33,246 nucleotides of DNA from the NCBI GenBank assembly GCA_020720045.1, contig DYPH01000018.1, forward strand, positions 11,294 through 44,539. Direction: 5' to 3'. Positions 18,753 to 26,411 of this stretch are shown here, in pieces (within the stretch, counting starts at the first letter, position 1; each line of letters opens with the position of its first letter). The notes below the pieces were generated by a model. It was not told the origin of the DNA. It did not search any database and worked only from the letters and a program-made list of their open reading frames with translations. Source of the stretch: Sorangium cellulosum. Its GTDB lineage: Bacteria > Myxococcota_A > Polyangia > Polyangiales > Polyangiaceae. Position numbers and translations under genes: made by a program.

Positions 18753-18773
18753 CTTCGCAAACAACACCCAAAG

Positions 18774-18812
18774 AAAAAGCCGCCCCGGGAATCCCGCGGG
18801 CGGCTTTTTTTT
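18774..18812. terminator. Bidirectional rho-independent terminator
   Basis: A GCCGCCC/GGGCGGC stem (18779-18785 with 18798-18804) has an inner CGGG/CCCG extension. It is flanked by five A on the left and eight T on the right. It ends the dehydrogenase gene on the plus strand and, 5 bp after its stop codon, the ATPase gene on the minus strand. Confidence 0.9.
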
Positions 18813-18816
18813 CGGA

Positions 18817-20040
18817 CTACTTGTCTCCGCTCCAGTCAAGCTTCTCGTCCTCCGTATTCGCGACGAGTCTCATAAAATCTCTCATGCCGGCCTCGCAAAA
18901 AACGTAGCGATCTCGAATTGCCTTTCCGTTCGCGTCAGTCTCGGTCTTGAGAATTTGATAGTCCTTCGACTTCAGTTGACTGAGGGCTTGGGCCACCGCA
19001 TCTCTTTTGGTGGCTTTCAGGGTCCTCCTCTCCACTTCCTTTCGGATTTGCTCCGTAGTCACGAATTCACTGTCGTGGAGGTGTCCCATGGCTAGCAAGG
19101 TCTGCTTTCGCCACTGAAATGGCCCGACTGTTTCGCACGCCTCGACGTATTGCTTTTTGAATCGCGCTGCGTTCCGGCGCACGTAGGTTAGGAGAGCGGC
19201 TTTGTAGTGGTCGAGCGTTGCGGTGCGGATAGATTGCGCGCACGCCGCCTCCGCGACTTCCAAGCATAGAAACTGGAGTATCGACGGAGACCCACCACTC
19301 GCTTTAACGACGGCGGAGCTCACTGTTCCGTCGCATCGGATGGACAGTCGCTCCATGCCATTTTGGACAACCATAGATGACTCTGCCTCCGAGAATAGAG
19401 GCACATGGACATCCGAGAGGACTCGAGAGATACCATTGTCTGTGGCGACGAGTCTGCTGGATTCGGCGGCGGTCCCAACGACAATTAGACCAAAATGGAT
19501 CGAAGACCGATTCGCGGCGCGCTTAATCAACTCCGCAACGGCTCGAACGAGGTCAGCTGACGCTCGATGCATTTCATCGAGTACGAGCACGACTTTTTTT
19601 TCTTCACAGAGTTGAAGAAGGAGTTCGTCGGTATTTCCAGAAACGGCAGGTACAAACGTTGCGGTACTGTCTACCGAAACCTTCCCAGTGACGCTCGCGG
19701 TCATTCCAGCTGCGGCGCCCAACGACGTCGCCACTTCCAATCCTCCTCGCGACGTCCGAGAGGCAAGTTTCTCTACCTCAAGCTTTGAAAATATCTCATT
19801 TTTGAGTCCTTCGGCACCCAATTGTGCAACATTTTCGAGATGGACAAGGCATCGCTGTTTTCTCCGAACGACACGAAGAACCATGGATGTTTTCCCAACA
19901 CCATAGTCGCCAAAAACGACCGGAACCAAACCACGTTCCAAGTCTTTTTCAATATCCTTTTCGGTCGAACGTGGAGCGTAGGCATGTCGTTCCTCAACTG
20001 AGGGACGTGCTGGTACAAAGACATCACTGGGCTTTTCCAT
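18817..20040 (-). CDS. AAA/STAND-like ATPase with C-terminal winged-helix-like region, downstream of the Ro/Y-RNA array
   Basis: The protein is about 407 aa. Walker A is GDYGVGKTS (residues 44-52) and Walker B is VVLVLDEMH (Asp near 155). A Gly/Ala/Thr-rich insert lies between them (about 100-135). The C-terminal third (HDSEFVTTEQIRKEVERRTLKATKRDAVAQAL region, then a YVFCEAGMRDF end) looks like a winged-helix domain. The overall layout resembles Orc1/Cdc6- or STAND-type P-loop ATPases used as switches; this is an inference. ATG 20040 is taken; the frame runs to a TTG at 20103. The gene is clearly lower in GC than its neighbours, a sign of transfer. It directly follows the RNA array with no terminator between, so it may be on the same transcript as the Ro gene. 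Confidence 0.75.
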   Translation of the reverse strand: MEKPSDVFVPARPSVEERHAYAPRSTEKDIEKDLERGLVPVVFGDYGVGKTSMVLRVVRRKQRCLVHLENVAQLGAEGLKNEIFSKLEVEKLASRTSRGGLEVATSLGAAAGMTASVTGKVSVDSTATFVPAVSGNTDELLLQLCEEKKVVLVLDEMHRASADLVRAVAELIKRAANRSSIHFGLIVVGTAAESSRLVATDNGISRVLSDVHVPLFSEAESSMVVQNGMERLSIRCDGTVSSAVVKASGGSPSILQFLCLEVAEAACAQSIRTATLDHYKAALLTYVRRNAARFKKQYVEACETVGPFQWRKQTLLAMGHLHDSEFVTTEQIRKEVERRTLKATKRDAVAQALSQLKSKDYQILKTETDANGKAIRDRYVFCEAGMRDFMRLVANTEDEKLDWSGDK

Positions 20041-20108
20041 CGCCTCAAGAGTCACCGGATATGGACGGGAGTGCAACAACTTTTGTGGGCCGCTAAACGT
20101 CAAAAGAA

Positions 20109-20232
20109 GGTGGCGGCGGGGTTTTCACCCGCATCTCCGGGATGGAATCGGTAACCCTTCTTCTTCGGCCCCAACGAACCAGTCGTGGGACGAGGGATTG
20201 AAAAAGGGACACTCCCAGCGTGTTAACCTGGC
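20109..20232 (-). ncRNA. Y-RNA-like element 5 (last of array)
   Basis: Reading the minus strand, a 4-bp D-arm-like hairpin (ACAC/GTGT, 20220-20223 with 20209-20212) is followed by the Ro-motif helix CCCTTTTTC (20208-20200) pairing over 9 bp with GAAGAAGGG (20163-20155). Next come GGGCCGA (20171-20165), ten bases, and TTACCG (20154-20149). A perfect 5-bp T-arm follows, GCGGG (20132-20128) with CCCGC (20120-20116) around loop TGAAAAC. The last seven bases (CGCCACC) find no 7-bp partner near the D-arm, so the acceptor stem is lost or differently placed. The T-run inside is part of the helix, not a terminator. Confidence 0.6.
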
Positions 20233-20242
20233 GTTCCTTAAA

Positions 20243-20324
20243 CGATAATCCTCTCCCATCGGCCCACCGGGGTGGACGAAAGTCGAAAGAAGATAACCCG
20301 CTCTTCCGTCTGAGCTACCGCTGC
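20243..20324 (-). ncRNA. Y-RNA-like element 4 with canonical tRNA 5' half
   Basis: The 5' part reads like a tRNA: GCAGCGG (20324-20318), TA, D-stem GCTC/GAGC (20315-20312 with 20303-20300), and D-loop AGACGGAA with the conserved GG. The Ro-motif helix ATCTTCTTTC (20294-20285) pairs over 10 bp with GGGAGAGGAT (20257-20248). GGGCCGA (20265-20259), N10 and TTATCG (20248-20243) follow. I see no T-arm or acceptor 3' strand after it. Element 5 lacks an acceptor 5' strand, so 4 and 5 may be one composite RNA with two Ro-motif modules. Six of seven bases of GCAGCGG could pair with CCGCCGC in element 5, but that would break its T-stem. Confidence 0.6.
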
Positions 20325-20348
20325 AAATTCACGAACGTTCCAAGGCAC

Positions 20349-20414
20349 TGTGACGGCGGGATTCGCGCCCGCAATTGACCTTTCGGCCCGTGATGAAAGT
20401 TTCACTACGTCACA
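20349..20414 (-). ncRNA. Minimal 66-nt tRNA mimic with GAAA-capped stem in place of the anticodon arm (array element 3)
   Basis: On the minus strand the acceptor TGTGACG (20414-20408) pairs 7/7 with CGTCACA (20355-20349). TA sits at positions 8-9. D-stem GTGA/TCAC has an 8-nt loop. The anticodon arm is a 4-bp stem, GGCC-GAAA-GGTC. T-stem GCGGG/CCCGC has the 7-nt loop CGCGAAT. There is no anticodon and no CCA. The half-motif GGGCCGA is present but the TTAYCG half is missing, so it may be a deletion form of the other elements or a distinct part. This is the cleanest complete cloverleaf-like fold in the array. Confidence 0.75.
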
Positions 20415-20433
20415 CGCATCCCCAATTGGGGGG

Positions 20434-20569
20434 TGCAGCTGGCGGGATTCGAACCCGCGGCACGGCGATCCATATTCGATAACCGTCTTTCGTCGACCCA
20501 CACGCGAACGCGCATGGATAAGGGGTGAGAAACGGTGTTTTTCCTGCTCTACCACTGAGCTACAGCCGC
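20434..20569 (-). ncRNA. Y-RNA/tRNA-mimic element 2 (YrlA-like)
   Basis: The acceptor GCGGCTG (20569-20563) pairs with CAGCTGC (20441-20435), 7/7 with one G-U. TA at 8-9. D-stem GCTC/GAGC has loop AGTGGTA. T-stem GCGGG/CCCGC has the canonical T-loop TTCGAAT. In place of an anticodon arm is a Y-RNA module: ATCCAT/ATGGAT stem (20519-20514 with 20473-20468), a UUCG-capped hairpin, GGGTCGA (20499-20493), N10, TTATCG (20482-20477). The N10 pairs back with ACCGTTTCTC (20536-20527), 9 of 10. After the acceptor comes A then C-rich sequence, no CCA. Its U8-A9-G10 is the stop codon of the Ro gene. Confidence 0.85.
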
Positions 20570-21852
20570 TTGCGAAACATCACGAAAGAGAACACGAAAG
20601 TCGTGGTTGTGGGATTTTCACCCGCATTTCGGAGCCCCTTCGATAAACCTCGCTCGTCGGCCCAACGAAGTTCTCGGATCCGGCGCTTCGCCGGGACGAG
20701 ACCAACAATTGGGCAAGGTCTTGAACGAGGACTCTTTCTCCGTGTACTAGAATTGTACGAAACCACGGTGCAGCCGTCGAGGGCGAGCATATGACGCTTC
20801 CCCGTCGGTTCAATCGTCTGAAAAGAGGCAAAGAATGCGTCATCCAGCGCCTTGATCAGTCGCGTATCCGGCTTCCAGGTCAACGAGCCTTTGTCGCCGC
20901 GCCCTTGCCCGTAGATGCCGGCGGCCGCAAGGACCGACAGCGGATGGATGCGCGCCTTCTTCAGTGCCCGCTCGTCGCGGAGGCGGTCGGCGATCAAGCG
21001 CCCGTGGCCGGCGTCCGTGAGCCCGAGCGCACCCAGACGCGCGAGGTTTCGGAGGAGGGCCGTGAGCGGAAGATCGGGGAGCAACGCTTCCCAAACCGCC
21101 TTATTTGCGAGGAATTGCGACGGGATCATCTCGTGCGTAAAGCGATACTTCGCGCAGAGTTGAATGACCTCCTCGGGGCTCGTCGCCTGCTGGAGGGCAT
21201 CGAAGGCGGCAAGCGTCTCCGGGAGGAGGCTCGCGTCGGGCGCCTTGCCGACGATCCACCCGAAGATCGCCTTCTGGCGGTCGTCGACGGGATGGGCGTG
21301 GGAGAGGCGCAACATGTCGCGGTGAGACCAGCCGTCCCGCTGGCGGTATTTCGTCGTTTGATAGACGAGATCCTTCTCCGCCTTCTGCGTATACCAGCGG
21401 GCGACCGCGGTACGGAGCGCGCGGCCGAAACCGCGAAAGCGGGTCGCGGCGTCGACGAAATGAAAGAGGTGGGTCGCCGTACGCGCAACCTGGGGCAGGG
21501 CCTCAAGGGCTGCGGCCCGCGTCGCCGGGTCCCCCGCGGAAGCCGCGTAGGCAAGGGCAAGGATCGCCGAGTCATTCTTGGGGGCGCGGCCGGTCACCGA
21601 GACGGAAACAATCCGCGAAACGGTCTTTTTCCCGTCGAGCGCGAGGCAGGCATCGAGGGCGCTGAGGGCGTCCTGCGCGGTCTTTCGTGCGGTCGCGTAG
21701 TAGGTCGGGCCGTCGGCGCCGAGGATGAGGAAGCGGTCGAGGCGCCCCCAGGCATCGAGGGCGAACACCGCGCCACCGGCATGGTTGGTCACGAGACCGG
21801 CGGTCGGGTTGGCAGACTTCGGGGCGAACAGGTCAAGAACAGCGCGGAACAT
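20560..21852 (-). CDS. rsr: Ro60-like TROVE protein, VWA domain missing
   Basis: This is an RNA-binding ring of the Ro/TROVE family; bacterial Ro binds Y RNAs and takes part in RNA quality control and stress survival. The N-terminus NPTAGLVTNHAGGAVFALDAWGRL and the block KYRQRDGWSHRDMLRLSHAHP (about residues 168-188) are family signatures for the HEAT-like ring and RNA-binding surface. Similarity runs to KRHMLALD (about residue 359), the first Asp of the VWA MIDAS motif. The expected V-S-G-S and the remaining VWA domain are absent. The last ~71 residues are translated array sequence, ending at a TAG that is tRNA position 8-10 of element 2. Start ATG 21852 has GGAG 8 bases upstream. It is either a truncated gene or a TROVE-only protein. 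Confidence 0.85.
   Translation of the reverse strand: MFRAVLDLFAPKSANPTAGLVTNHAGGAVFALDAWGRLDRFLILGADGPTYYATARKTAQDALSALDACLALDGKKTVSRIVSVSVTGRAPKNDSAILALAYAASAGDPATRAAALEALPQVARTATHLFHFVDAATRFRGFGRALRTAVARWYTQKAEKDLVYQTTKYRQRDGWSHRDMLRLSHAHPVDDRQKAIFGWIVGKAPDASLLPETLAAFDALQQATSPEEVIQLCAKYRFTHEMIPSQFLANKAVWEALLPDLPLTALLRNLARLGALGLTDAGHGRLIADRLRDERALKKARIHPLSVLAAAGIYGQGRGDKGSLTWKPDTRLIKALDDAFFASFQTIEPTGKRHMLALDGCTVVSYNSSTRRKSPRSRPCPIVGLVPAKRRIRELRWADERGLSKGLRNAGENPTTTTFVFSFVMFRKRL
20602..20767 (-). ncRNA. Y-RNA/tRNA-mimic element 1 (first of array, inside the Ro reading frame)
   Basis: The acceptor CGTGGTT (20767-20761) pairs 7/7 with AACCACG (20608-20602). D-stem GTAC/GTAC (20758-20755 with 20747-20744) has a 7-nt loop. 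The T-arm is GCGGG/CCCAC (one C-A mismatch) with loop TGAAAAT. The central module has CCTCGTTC (20730-20723) pairing over 8 bp with GAGCGAGG (20655-20648), GGGCCGA (20663-20657), N10 and TTATCG, plus a CCGGCG/CGCCGG hairpin. The element starts 8 bases after the codon where Ro similarity stops, so the Ro frame reads through it. Confidence 0.75.
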
Positions 21853-22060
21853 ATAGAATTCTCCGAGGGGAGTCGGCCCATCGCTGGGCAACCGTCTCAC
21901 GTCGTCGCCCCCCGCAGCTTCGCGGGTCGGCGTCGACCGTCCGCCGTTTTCAGCGGACGTCTGCCGTTCAGCAGCGCCCGTGCCAGCGGCTGTGGGGAGC
22001 CAGATTTCCTCGGTTTCTTGATGGCGGGCCTCCGCGAGCCCCCAAATTGCGCGCGTATGC
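21853..22060 (-). other. About 210-bp leader upstream of the Ro gene
   Basis: No gene is supported here. Two small hairpins are present: CCCGC/GCGGG at 21911-21926 and GTCCGC/GCGGAC at 21939-21958. The latter's minus-strand loop (TGAAAACG) resembles the T-loops of array elements 1 and 5. No matching D-arm, acceptor or Ro motif is found, so it is not called as another array member. GGAG before ATG 21852 is the ribosome binding site. Confidence 0.4.
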
Positions 22061-22085
22061 GCTAGGAATACTAGCCTATAGGCTA
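22061..22085. promoter_or_regulatory. Operator-like nested palindromes upstream of the Ro-array operon
   Basis: TAGCCTATAGGCTA (22072-22085) is a perfect 14-bp palindrome. It overlaps a second inverted repeat, GCTAG-N5-CTAGC (22061-22075), giving three GGCTA-type half-sites at a regular interval in an AT-rich patch. This is the only AT-rich stretch between the aldehyde-dehydrogenase terminator and the Ro start. A regulator site or promoter here is an inference. Confidence 0.45.
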
Positions 22086-22226: not shown

Positions 22227-22607
22227 TCAGGGTCGTGGGAGAGGGCCGGCGGCCGGCTCGCCAAGCACTTCGATTTCCTCGGTGGTGAGGATCTCGCTGC
22301 GGATCAGGAAGCGCACGCCGAGGGGCGACTCCAAGGAGAAGCCGGCGCCGCGGCCAGGGACGACATCGAGGACGAGGCGGGTGTGCTTCCAGTATTCGAA
22401 CTGGGCCGCCCCCATATAGAAAGGTGTATCTTCCACCATTCCGAGGAACACGTCGCGACTACCGATGCGGAAATCCCCGACTTTAAAGCACATCGGAGCG
22501 CTTCCGTCGCAGCAGCCGCCGCTCTGGTGAAAGAGCAGCGGCCCGTTCTCGCGGGTGAGGTCACGCACAAGCGCGAGGGCGACCTCGGTGGCGACGATGC
22601 GGCTCAC
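22227..22607 (-). CDS. DUF779 protein, partner of aldehyde dehydrogenase
   Basis: The protein is about 126 aa. It has the DUF779 signature HQSGGCCDGSAPMCF and VFLGMVEDTPFYMGAAQFEYWKHT (three close cysteines, probable metal site). DUF779 genes are regularly found just after exaC/acoD-type aldehyde dehydrogenases; the biochemical role is unknown. The start is a GTG at 22607, 8 bp after the dehydrogenase stop, where family similarity begins (VSRIVATEVALALV). The longer frame to 22775 overlaps the dehydrogenase and is not supported. Confidence 0.85.
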   Translation of the reverse strand: MSRIVATEVALALVRDLTRENGPLLFHQSGGCCDGSAPMCFKVGDFRIGSRDVFLGMVEDTPFYMGAAQFEYWKHTRLVLDVVPGRGAGFSLESPLGVRFLIRSEILTTEEIEVLGEPAAGPLPRP

Positions 22608-22615
22608 GACGCCGC

Positions 22616-24136
22616 TCAGAAGAAACCCATCGGGTTCGGATCGTAGCTGACGAGGAGGTTTTTCGTCTGCTGGTAGTGGGCGAGCATCATGGCGTGATTT
22701 TCGCGCCCGATGCCCGACTGCTTGTAGCCGCCAAAGGCGGCGTGGGCCGGATAGTGGTGGTAGCAGTTCGTCCACACACGGCCTGCTTCAATGGCGCGAC
22801 CGGCCCGGTAGGCGGTGTGCGTGCTGCGCGACCAGACGCCGGCGCCCAGGCCATAGAGCGTGTCGTTGGCGATGGAGATCGCGTCGTCGAAGTCGGTGAA
22901 GGAGGTCACGGAGACGACCGGGCCGAAGATTTCTTCCTGGAAGATCCGCATCTTGTTGTGGCCTTCGAAGATCGTCGGCTGGACGTAAAAGCCCGTTGCC
23001 AGGTCGCCGCTCATCTCGCCGACGGCGCCGCCGAGGAGGACCTTGGCCCCCTCTTTCTTCCCGATGTCGATGTAGGAGAGGATCTTCTCCAATTGATCAC
23101 GCGACGCCTGCGCCCCCACCTTGGTGTCGGTGTCGAGGGGGTTCCCCGGCTTGCTCTTGCCGACGCGCTCGATGGCCATCGGAAGGAACTTGTCGTAGAT
23201 CGACTTTTGAATCAGCGCGCGGGACGGGCAGGTGCAGACCTCCCCCTGATTCAACTTGAACATCGCGAAGCCTTCGAGGGCCTTCTGAAGGAAGTTGTCG
23301 TCCTGGGCGACGACGTCCTCGAAGAAGATGTTCGGCGACTTTCCGCCGAGCTCCAGGGTGACCGGGTTCAAGTTCTCAGAGGCGTACTGCATGATGAGGC
23401 GGCCGGTCGTCGTCTCGCCGGTGAAGGCGACCTTTCCGACGCGCGGCGAAGAAGCGAGCGGCTTACCGGCTTCAATGCCGAAACCGTTGACGATGTTGAG
23501 GACGCCCGGCGGGAGAAGGTCCCCAACGAGTTCCATCCAAACGAGGATCGAAACCGGGGTCTGCTCGGCCGGCTTCAAGACGATCGCGTTGCCACCGGCG
23601 AGGGCGGGGGCGATCTTCCAGGTGGCCATCAAGATCGGGAAATTCCAGGGAATAATCTGAGCAACGACGCCGATCGGCTCATGGAAGTGATAGGCGACGG
23701 TGTGCTCGTCGAGCTGGGAGATCCCGCCTTCTTGGGCGCGGATGCAGCCGGCGAAATAGCGAAAGTGGTCGATGGCAAGCGGGATGTCTGCAGCGAGTGT
23801 TTCGCGGACCGGCTTGCCGTTGTCCCAGGTCTCGGCGACGGCGAGGAGTTCGAGATTCGCCTCCATCCGATCGGCGATCTTATTGAGAATGTTCGCGCGT
23901 TCCGTCGGTGAGGTTTTGCCCCACGCGCTCTTCGCCTTGTGGGCGGCGTCGAGGGCGTCTTCGACGTCGCTCGCGTCCGAGCGGGGGATTTCGCAGAAGG
24001 TCTTCCCGGTGACCGGCGTCACGTTCTCAAAATACCTGCCGGCGCGGGGCGCCTTCCACTCGCCGCCGATGTAGTTGCCGTAGCGGCTCTTGAACGCGAT
24101 CTTCGAACCTTCGGTATTCGGTGCGGCGTAGATCAT
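22616..24136 (-). CDS. NAD-dependent aldehyde dehydrogenase (ExaC/AcoD type)
   Basis: This enzyme oxidises acetaldehyde or similar aldehydes to acids. About 506 aa. [20 protein letters not shown] and ELGGKSPNI give the catalytic Glu region. [17 protein letters not shown] carries the nucleophile Cys, with the doubled CTC of the acetaldehyde dehydrogenase II group. EEIFGPV near the C-terminus. ATG 24136 is decided by AAGGAG 6 bases upstream; the frame extends 25 codons further without a ribosome binding site. The divergent AcoR-type regulator and the downstream DUF779 are the usual partners. Control by that regulator through the inverted repeat at 24274-24299 is likely. Confidence 0.93.
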
Positions 24137-24273
24137 GGGGCTCTCCTTCGGTGGGACGTCGGTACGTGATTGCCCCATCTCTTCAGCGATTGTGCCAACG
24201 GCATGACGCACCGCAAAAGCCCATTTTCTCGGTGTTTTCTGTCTTCACGGCGGCGCGTCCAACGCGCTCCACC

Positions 24274-24299
24274 TGTCGCACCTGTTGCATTGTGCGACA
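24274..24299. promoter_or_regulatory. Activator site (UAS) for the AcoR-type regulator
   Basis: A perfect 8-bp inverted repeat, TGTCGCAC-N10-GTGCGACA, lies in the 301-bp space between the dehydrogenase and the regulator, about 140 bp from each start. Position and symmetry fit a Fis-type enhancer site. The best -24/-12 candidate toward the dehydrogenase is TTGGCAC near 24190-24200 (minus strand). Its -12 half reads CTGAA instead of TTGCW, so the promoter call is weak. Confidence 0.65.
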
Positions 24300-24437
24300 T
24301 AGGATTGGCGAAAGAGACCGGCGGGAAATGTGCAGCCGAGAGCTTCGCTGCGCGCTACCTTCTTCGCTTGGCTGTGCGGTTGGAGAGGGGCGTCCGTTCG
24401 CCGGTCACCCCTCGACGCGCGCCGAAGGGTTGCATGC

Positions 24438-26411
24438 ATGATGCACTTTCATGATCGCGGTGTGCAGTTCTGGCGCCGATTCTGCGAGCGGGAGTGGGAT
24501 GTCCGTCCCGGAGGGAACGCGCGCCTGGTCGCGTCCGAGACGTCTCTTGGCGATCGCGATGACGAGGCGGAGCTGGTCGCCCGTTGGCGCCGCGCCCGAG
24601 CGCTTGGCGCACGCCCCCTCGGCGGAGATCCGATTGTGGCCGTCCCCGACCGCGACTTGCTGGAGCGCAAGGAGAGACTCGCGCCTGTAACTACCCGTTT
24701 TCAGCGTCTTTTTGCCCCCCTCGAAGACGCCCTCGCCCGCGCCAGCGCCATCGCCCTCTTTGCCGATCCGGAAGGGGTGATCCTCAGTACAAAGGGGTGG
24801 CGCACCGTCGAGAGCCCGACGGCGCGCGCGCGCCTTGTGGACGGCTGTTCGTGGTCCGAAAAAGACCGCGGAACCAACGCCATCGGGACCGCCGCCATCG
24901 AGCGCGTCCCTGTCAGCGTCGTCGGCGCTGCTCACTTTGAAGCTCGAAATCACGCGCTTTTTTGCCATGCGGCGCCGGTCCTCGATCTTTTCGGCGAGGT
25001 CGTCGGCGTTGTCGACGTCAGCGGCCCTGTCGGCGCCTCCGACGCGGCGTTCTCGGCGGCGGTCCCGATGGCAGCGCGCGCCCTTGAAGAGGCGCTCGCC
25101 CATGACCTCTTCGCACGTACCATCGCCGGCGGTCTCCCCGCCGTGGAAGCCCGCATCGGCAACGATCGCGAGGCGACGCTCGTCGTCGACGGCCGTGGCC
25201 AGGTCGTCGCGCGGAATGTTGCATTCTGCACACTCTTTGGCCTCGCGCCGGAGGAGCCACTGACCGTCGAACGGCTCTTCGGCACCCGCTTCGACGCCGT
25301 CGCCAAATACGCCCGCGATTCACAGGTGCCGCTTGCCTTTGAGGTCGCCGATCGTCGCCTCGCCGTCTCCCTGGAACCGCTGCAAGACACACGCAATCGC
25401 GTCTTTGCGGTGATCATCCGCTTCCGCGATCGGGCGTTTCGGCAGGAAATCGTTCGCGCGCGCCCTTCGCCGACGCGCCCCGCCTCTTTTTCGCGCATCC
25501 ACGGGAGCGATCCCGCCCTCGCCGCGACCCTCGACAAGGCGGCTCGCATCGCCGCTTCGACACTCCCCGTCCTCCTCATCGCCGAAACGGGAACCGGCAA
25601 AGAACGGCTCGCTGCCGCGATTCATGGCGCCAGTCCGCGGGCCGTTTCCCCCTTTGTTGCCGTCAATTGTGCGGCGGTGCCAGCGTCGCTCCTCGAGAGC
25701 GAGCTTTTCGGTCACGCCCCGCGGAGCTTCACGGGCGCCTCCCGGAGCGGATCGAAGGGAAAAATCGCGGAAGCCGATGGGGGGACGCTCTTCTTGGACG
25801 AGCTTGGCGACATGCCGCCGGCGATGCAGGCAGCGCTCTTGCGCGTCCTCGAAGATGGCAGTTACTACCGCGTGGGGGAGGAGCGCCCGCGGAAGTCTCA
25901 ATTCCGATTGATCGCGGCGACTGGAGTCCCACTCGCCGACGCAGTCGCCGCCGGAACCTTCCGCGCCGATCTCTACCATCGCCTCGCCGGGGCCGTCCTC
26001 GCGATCCCGCCGCTCCGGGATCGGCGCGATCTCCCCGAACTCGCGACGGCGATCCTGGGGGAGCTCGCCGTGCCAGGCACCGACCCGAAGCGGCTCTCAA
26101 GTGCCGCCCTCGCACGCCTCACTCGGCATACTTTTCCCGGGAATATTCGAGAGTTGCGTATGGCACTCCACCACGCCGTCGTCCTCGCGGGCGAGCGTGA
26201 AATCGTCGACGTCGACGACCTCCCGGACACCCTTCAACCAGGCGCAACCAGCTTGGGTTTGAAGGTCCGCCGCGTCGTCGACGACGTGATGGGGCGCGCT
26301 CTCGACGCCTACGGCGGAAACGTCAGCGAGGCGGCGCGGCGCCTCGGCGTCTCCCGGAGCACCCTCTATCGGCGCGGCCTTACGCCGACCGACCGGCGCC
26401 GAGAACGTTGA
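24438..26411 (+). CDS. AcoR-type sigma-54-dependent transcriptional activator
   Basis: The protein is about 657 aa. An N-terminal GAF-like sensor (DRGTNAIGTAAIERVPVSV) is followed by a PAS-like region, an AAA+ sigma-54 interaction domain (Walker A AETGTGKERLA near residue 380; Walker B GGTLFLDELGDMP near 450) and a C-terminal Fis helix-turn-helix (GNVSEAARRLGVSRSTLYRR). The sigma-54 contact loop, usually GAFTGA, reads RSFTGA (near residue 429): FTGA is kept, the first two residues differ. ATG 24438 has AAGGG 8 bases upstream; the next codon is also ATG. The start overlaps a TGCA-N3-TGCA repeat. Divergent from the aldehyde dehydrogenase operon, which it probably activates. Its 3' end overlaps the glycosyltransferase gene by 32 bp, tail to tail. 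Confidence 0.92.
   Translation: MMHFHDRGVQFWRRFCEREWDVRPGGNARLVASETSLGDRDDEAELVARWRRARALGARPLGGDPIVAVPDRDLLERKERLAPVTTRFQRLFAPLEDALARASAIALFADPEGVILSTKGWRTVESPTARARLVDGCSWSEKDRGTNAIGTAAIERVPVSVVGAAHFEARNHALFCHAAPVLDLFGEVVGVVDVSGPVGASDAAFSAAVPMAARALEEALAHDLFARTIAGGLPAVEARIGNDREATLVVDGRGQVVARNVAFCTLFGLAPEEPLTVERLFGTRFDAVAKYARDSQVPLAFEVADRRLAVSLEPLQDTRNRVFAVIIRFRDRAFRQEIVRARPSPTRPASFSRIHGSDPALAATLDKAARIAASTLPVLLIAETGTGKERLAAAIHGASPRAVSPFVAVNCAAVPASLLESELFGHAPRSFTGASRSGSKGKIAEADGGTLFLDELGDMPPAMQAALLRVLEDGSYYRVGEERPRKSQFRLIAATGVPLADAVAAGTFRADLYHRLAGAVLAIPPLRDRRDLPELATAILGELAVPGTDPKRLSSAALARLTRHTFPGNIRELRMALHHAVVLAGEREIVDVDDLPDTLQPGATSLGLKVRRVVDDVMGRALDAYGGNVSEAARRLGVSRSTLYRRGLTPTDRRRER

Follow-up and report, generated by a model that had tools for sequence, protein, structure and literature searches.

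The window analysed here, a stretch of 33,246 nucleotides from Sorangium cellulosum (contig DYPH01000018.1 of assembly GCA_020720045.1, a draft genome of 6.34 Mb in 357 contigs, referred to below as G000), contains a Ro60/Rsr gene with a TROVE domain, followed by a set of tandem tRNA-like elements and an ATPase gene. All parts named in the original prediction, i.e. an operator-like palindrome, the TROVE gene, the tRNA-like elements, the ATPase gene and a terminator-like repeat, could be confirmed from the sequence, on the minus strand and close to where they had been placed. The closest relative available for comparison was a genome of the same genus with about 95% identical DNA (G001), whose contig corresponds to JAAFHJ010000052.1, a Myxococcales metagenome-assembled genome, the two being identical over the 12,128 bases compared. 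Its Ro locus aligns to the window at 94-96% identity over the main aligned stretches. For a wider view we used a panel of 59 genomes and one of 377 genomes of the phylum, both including G000, as well as 89 other Ro locus records, which represent 88 places (two records being the same place in G001) and many of which end at contig ends. Eighty named Ro loci, phylogenetically non-independent, were the best 80 of 340 retrieved with two VWA peptides; because the queries were VWA peptides, Ro genes without this domain could not appear among them. At least 5 kb on both sides of Ro was available in just 38 of the 80.

Judged from its sequence, the Ro gene of the window is a truncated descendant of Ro60/Rsr and not an intact member of the family. 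The TROVE part (20772-21852, minus strand) probably starts with the ATG at 21852 and ends at the residues LALD, where the VWA domain begins in relatives. It continues into a run-on tail of about 70 amino acids (20560-20771, minus strand), which reads through the tRNA-like element designated A and reaches a stop codon within the first ten bases of element B. The protein retains the HEAT-repeat TROVE domain (Pfam TROVE, E = 2.6e-41, 142.7 bits for a cut-off of 23) and lacks the C-terminal VWA domain, a match to the Pfam family vWA_Ro60 being absent. The NCBIfam model Rsr gave an E-value of 1.5e-75 but, at 254.6 bits, a score under the cut-off of 900, which the intact Ro protein of G001 also misses (489.6 bits). 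In a predicted model of the window protein the TROVE part is well folded and the tail unfolded, with a predicted local distance difference test score (pLDDT) of at least 90 in 198 of 430 residues, and a search with this model gave solved structures of Ro60/Rsr as its top matches (E down to 5.9e-21). The G001 protein has 572 amino acids, includes vWA_Ro60 (E = 8.5e-64) and matches Ro60 in the PDB at 1.3e-113.

The comparison with G001 places the truncation at a single junction (20771-20776, minus strand), where 671 bases are missing, comprising the VWA end of Ro and most of the first Y element; LALD runs straight into the 3' end of that element, and the exact microhomology at the junction amounts to two bases. 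The loss of the VWA domain stated in the original prediction is borne out; a Ro designed to lack this domain is not supported, as the comparison shows a deletion relative to a congener of about 95% identity. Over 360 codons of the TROVE part, the two species differ by 37 synonymous and only 2 non-synonymous codons (dN/dS, the ratio of non-synonymous to synonymous change, of 0.016), suggesting that strong constraint acted on the Ro gene until recently. A search of G000 for a second Ro gene gave no match. The other 16 relatives with a Ro match have open frames of 528-616 amino acids, except G010, where a contig end cuts the frame; the VWA domain was confirmed in G001 by family search and in seven further translations by reading.

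The array that follows is, by its arms, its Y modules and its counterpart in G001, a tandem series of Y RNAs of the YrlA (tRNA-mimic) type, as the original prediction had proposed. Element B (20434-20569; this and all other elements on the minus strand) is a full YrlA, with a 7-bp acceptor, a D arm, a Y module and a T arm (102.8 bits with our covariance model, R1), and element A (20601-20767, 49.5 bits) shows the same arms and module at a lower score; the Y module was recognised by the motif GGGYCGA / TTAYCG, taken from the original prediction and from these loci. Element C (20349-20415) is a mini-cloverleaf of 67 nt in which a hairpin with a GAAA tetraloop replaces the anticodon arm and the Y module. 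It is conserved in G001, was not matched by the covariance model in the window or in G001, and has a fold z-score of -1.66 (14 of 200 shuffles at least as good). Elements D (20226-20324) and E (20109-20225) are remnants, D having lost its T arm and 3' acceptor strand and E its 5' acceptor strand and part of the D arm. The model still matched over D at 20217-20321 (47.5 bits; 20214-20324 and 50.7 bits in a second search) and over E at 20108-20228 (43.5 bits). The five elements counted originally comprise the long A, the full YrlA B, the mini-cloverleaf C, which has no Y module, and the broken remnants D and E.

In G001 we could read seven elements: one right after the Ro stop codon, then A, B, C, D and E, and a further full YrlA. 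The covariance model recovered five of the seven at E<=1e-9 and A at 47.3 bits, and missed C. Relative to this array, the window has kept little of the first element, D and E have been fused by a loss of 44 bases, and the last element is absent. A search of Rfam returned no family at its gathering score for the window elements, the best result for element B being the tmRNA model (27.5 bits for a cut-off of 47). The earlier statement that no terminator lies between the parts stands as far as strong terminators are concerned, although one weak terminator-like site was found within the array (20605-20593); the region as a whole has 6 such sites for a shuffled mean of 4.3 (standard deviation 2.5).

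Inside element A lies a palindromic repeat of about 42 bases (20667-20708, minus strand) with at least 42 further matches in G000, a lower bound as 40 of 194 first-look candidates were scored; some of them occur in tandem (e.g. G000:C287:1914-2214, L038). In G000 and G001 alike, the repeat occupies the apical part of the element A RNA, which would fit the insertion of a small mobile palindrome that left the fold unbroken. We considered a link to a transposase and rejected it, the search having yielded two weak Y1_Tnp matches, one barely past the cut-off.

Given a gene that has lost one domain and retained the other, the question arises whether the TROVE part alone might still function as a Ro protein for the Y RNAs that are left. 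The TROVE part is intact and predicted to fold, and the dN/dS value points in the same direction, even if it mostly reflects the time preceding the deletion. Nevertheless, we regard this as unlikely: the tail is predicted to be unfolded, several Y RNAs have gone as well, the 16 other relatives keep their long frames apart from the one cut by a contig end, and the closed ring of solved Ro structures includes the VWA domain. That the deletions are errors of the assembly seems to us more doubtful still. A draft in so many pieces and an array of repeats, which can mislead assemblers, would be a setting for such errors, but a collapse needs a long repeat, whereas these breakpoints carry one or two bases of exact homology and their flanks align cleanly to G001.

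The availability of Y elements from many Ro loci allowed us to assess the proposed structure by covariation. Our alignment (A2) consists of 34 hand-picked rows, window element B plus 33 chosen from a pool of 76 elements, the other 43 of which were left out; nearly all chosen rows have 7/7 acceptor pairs, 4/4 D pairs and a complete T arm, and shorter elements were preferred. Double changes are seen in 24 of the 30 pairs, compared with 15.0 in shuffles, and 93.9% of the cells are paired, compared with 74.2% in shuffles; a slide by one base halves the pairing. As complete arms were a criterion for choosing rows, some of the covariation in the tRNA arms is a product of that choice. The Y helices played no part in the choice, except that the motif fixes the 3' side of the upper one, and the three are 92, 74 and 96% paired. 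RNAalifold, run on A2 with no structure supplied, recovered all three tRNA arms and, of the Y helices, the upper one but not the lower ones.

Within 3 kb of Ro in the 80 named loci, 210 Y motifs lie on the Ro strand and 16 on the other, with at least one motif in 71 loci and at least four in 24. Covariance-model matches at E<=1e-9 are all on the Ro strand (85 of 85, of which 34 are the model's own rows and 51 are new); they occur in 45 of 79 loci, three or more of them in 8. When the tRNA arms around the motifs were counted strictly, 42 of the 210 motifs had them, for a shuffled mean of 1.9 and a maximum of 4. A looser count was dropped, since at 88 of 210 for 75.5 shuffled it was barely above chance. 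These data also bear on whether the array could be a decayed tRNA cluster instead of a set of Y RNAs, an idea suggested by the true tRNA clusters that surround Ro in relatives and by ARAGORN, which calls part of one G001 element tRNA-Leu. A Y module that is conserved and covaries across phyla, the strict count of acceptor, D and T arms, and the conservation of the elements between two species make such an origin very unlikely.

Downstream of the array, a 428-codon open reading frame (18817-20103, minus strand) encodes an AAA_22-type ATPase with a winged-helix-like end (Pfam AAA_22, E = 2.4e-8). Its predicted model, from a single sequence, is poor (mean pLDDT 40), with values of 70-85 in the winged-helix-like end. 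As had been noticed, the gene differs in composition, with a GC (guanine and cytosine) content of 53% compared with 67% for Ro. A terminator-like inverted repeat followed by T (18768-18815), read from the sequence and conserved in G001, lies beyond it; our terminator scan, limited to loops of 3-8 bases, missed this repeat, whose arms are separated by 12. There is no match to the ATPase in G001, where the further YrlA and a small other gene occupy its place. That gene, of 214 codons (L029 12092-12736), has a weak PuhB-like match only and no relative among the other Ro loci.

None of the 89 other Ro locus records, many of them cut by contig ends, carries the ATPase (tblastn, E<=1e-5). Among the 58 other relatives there is one weak match (G058, 22% identity), and among the 376 other genomes of the phylum 12 weak ones, the best at 26% identity, in a search that scored up to four candidates per genome and matched by protein only, without regard to a Ro neighbourhood. 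Phage records gave no match and plasmids one, at 24%. Of the PADLOC models, the ATPase weakly matches PDC-S59 (E = 8.6e-8), a candidate-defence model, and Ro matches none at E<=1. We therefore judge the ATPase to be an orphan neighbour, probably an unrelated newcomer, and not a part of the Ro locus as originally proposed: in the homologous loci sampled the array is found and the ATPase is not. The proposal that Ro, the mimic array and the ATPase form one defence or sensing operon with the ATPase as responder, to which the shared strand, the lack of a strong terminator and the PDC-S59 match might lend themselves, is hardly tenable in view of this distribution and of the difference in GC.

Upstream of Ro, the predicted operator-like palindrome is present as a 14-base sequence, TAGCC-TATA-GGCTA (22072-22085, minus strand), a candidate enhancer (upstream activating sequence) for a sigma54 activator, which reads TAGCC-AATT-GGCTA in G001. 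Between it and the gene lies a -24/-12-like site, TGGCACGGGCGCTGCT (21970-21985, minus strand), with one mismatch to the sigma54 consensus and conserved in G001. The Ro promoter of G001 combines TAGCCAATTGGCTA with a sigma54-like box with one mismatch; the window palindrome, TAGCCTATAGGCTA, is still symmetric and one base off in each half. TAGCC-N4-GGCTA occurs at one place in G001, before Ro, and at three in G000, one of them here, while a reversed control gave 17 and 20 places. On another contig of G000, a gene for RtcR (with RtcR and Sigma54_activat domains) adjoins rtcB (2.4e-127) and rtcA (RTC cyclase, 5.4e-70), so that RtcR, RtcB and RtcA are all encoded in this genome. The rtcBA promoters of G000 and G001 both contain a sigma54-like box together with a direct repeat of TAGCCAA, whose two copies are 20 bases apart. 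This paired direct motif is found at one place in G001 and two in G000 (reversed control, 0 and 1), and in G001 the Ro and rtcBA promoters have the 7-base half-site and a sigma54-like box in common. Elsewhere, rtcA, rtcB and rtcR lie directly before Ro in one locus (L041), and an RtcB-like gene (25-60% identity) is near Ro in 11 of the 80 loci. On the far side of the promoter, aldehyde dehydrogenase and DUF779 genes lie beside a divergent sigma54 activator gene (Sigma54_activat, HTH_8) at 22227-26411; a terminator-like site (22154-22129) separates the aldehyde dehydrogenase/DUF779 group from Ro.

In several relatives, Ro lies within a cluster of tRNA genes. Among the seven other relatives with a close Ro, four have it in such a cluster (20, 29, 35 and 13 tRNAs by ARAGORN), and G001, G048 and G010, the latter on a 7-kb contig, have none or one tRNA at the locus; in two further relatives, whose Ro is distant, the counts are 12 and 20. 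The 80 named loci include 33 with at least 5 tRNAs, 23 with at least 10, 11 with at least 20 and 29 with none, and 552 of the 553 tRNAs are on the Ro strand. Eighteen loci resemble the window's genus in having three or more Y motifs and at most one tRNA. By our own grouping of record titles, at least 5 tRNAs are found in 14 of 20 loci of myxobacteria, 8 of 9 of Verrucomicrobia, 4 of 24 of Chloroflexi and none of 5 of Alphaproteobacteria. In Minicystis rosea (CP016211.1, L085 7756-21007), 54 tRNA genes of 20 isotypes, many in two or more copies, surround Ro60 and Y RNAs on one strand over 21.6 kb. Genomes with an array at Ro have 86 (G032), 67 (G004), 64 (G014) and 60 (G019) tRNA genes in total and 51, 38, 44 and 47, respectively, when those of the array are subtracted, and those without an array have 50 (G000), 40 (G001, 90% complete) and 59 (G048). 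An extra set is therefore obvious in G032 and less marked in G004 and G014, and the total of G019 does not reveal one. The position of Ro60 within clusters of spare tRNA genes hints at a role in coping with damaged tRNAs.

Taken together, we lean towards seeing in this locus the Ro60 and Y RNA arm of a regulon for RNA repair controlled by RtcR, the locus having recently been damaged in this strain. A plausible sensor would be RtcR, encoded elsewhere in the genome, and not the ATPase. Cleavage of tRNAs would leave RNA ends with 2',3'-cyclic phosphates that activate RtcR, which together with sigma54 would turn on rtcBA and, via a related enhancer site, the Ro-Y locus. Ro60 would then bind the Y module of the Y RNAs, and their tRNA-like part may recruit PNPase, by analogy with YrlA, leading to the degradation of damaged or misfolded RNAs. 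In addition, the presence of several mimics may provide a sink for tRNA-attacking enzymes, and the extra tRNA genes in the arrays of relatives could refill the tRNA pool. In the strain studied here, Ro lacks its VWA domain, several Y RNAs are missing or fused, and an ATPase gene, in our judgement unrelated, has come to lie alongside.

Several observations weigh against assigning the locus to such a regulon. When one mismatch at most was allowed, only 4 of the 80 loci had a sigma54-like site in the 1.5 kb upstream of Ro (opposite strand, 1 of 80), and with two mismatches the numbers were 17 and, on the opposite strand, 13; the regulatory link is therefore not general, and we rejected a general sigma54 promoter before Ro. 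The sigma54-like box of rtcBA has two mismatches, and each half of the window palindrome departs from the rtc half-site at one base. At 16 other rtcR loci this half-site was not found, apart from a single distal copy in L139. Of the 8 genomes that have a close Ro, 6 encode RtcR, G032 and G010 being those that lack it; of the other 51 among the 59 searched, 15 encode it. On the RNA side, the fold z-score of element B (-1.82) is modest, like that of C, the D and E remnants have no fold signal (0.43 and -0.62), searching for elements by the Y motif set the 3' strand of the upper Y helix in advance, and the structure was drawn after the sequences had been seen.

Ro60 with tRNA-like Y RNAs is an already known kind of system. 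Excerpts of two papers describe the rsr-yrlBA-rtcBA operon of Salmonella under RtcR and sigma54 (PMC9879122, PMC7790460), which resembles the regulon favoured here in having a Ro60 gene with tRNA-like Y RNAs, a genome that encodes RtcR, RtcB and RtcA, and a sigma54-like promoter, and differs in that here rtcBA is on another contig, the Y elements are more numerous (seven in G001) and the window has lost VWA. In YrlA, which according to passages of PMC8394870 tethers Rsr to PNPase, acceptor, D and T arms likewise enclose a Y module; unlike the YrlA described there, the elements here come in tandem sets, with up to five model matches per locus, and they include one 67-nt element without a Y module and one element holding an inserted dispersed palindrome. 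According to parts of PMC6333295, 20 of the 29 archaeal tRNA clusters in that study contain a TROVE gene. These resemble our loci in having TROVE inside a tRNA cluster; ours are bacterial and have Y RNAs interspersed, whereas the term 'Y RNA' is absent from the main text of that paper. The tRNA array units of mycobacteria and of their plasmids and phages (PMC12803027, PMC5966550) share the dense extra tRNAs of most isotypes, but TROVE, Ro60 and Y RNA are not named in the main texts. Jumbo phages can, from passages of PMC7824862 and PMC8504454, encode a TROVE protein alongside numerous tRNAs within a single genome; those on a Ralstonia phage list TROVE and tRNAs apart and do not name Y RNAs. 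No description of bacterial Ro-Y-tRNA arrays or of Y-only tandem arrays was found in the literature searched, which did not include the three likeliest works (Chen 2014, Burroughs and Aravind 2016, Sim 2020).

We believe that tRNA damage may be the common theme of these loci, as same-strand Ro60, tandem mimics and extra tRNA sets in several phyla, together with a possibly shared promoter element, would all fit with it. More tentatively, and rather as a possibility than as an expectation, Ro60 of Myxococcota, Chloroflexi, Verrucomicrobia and others might be part of an inducible 'tRNA rescue kit', comprising same-strand extra tRNAs of most isotypes, several mimic Y RNAs and Ro60, co-induced with rtcBA when tRNAs are cut; in the window's genus this kit might have been reduced to the mimics, acting as decoys for tRNA-cutting enzymes. 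Sorangium cellulosum, Minicystis rosea and Desulfonema magnum, for which complete genomes exist, would be suitable species in which to address whether Ro60 serves these bacteria in this way.

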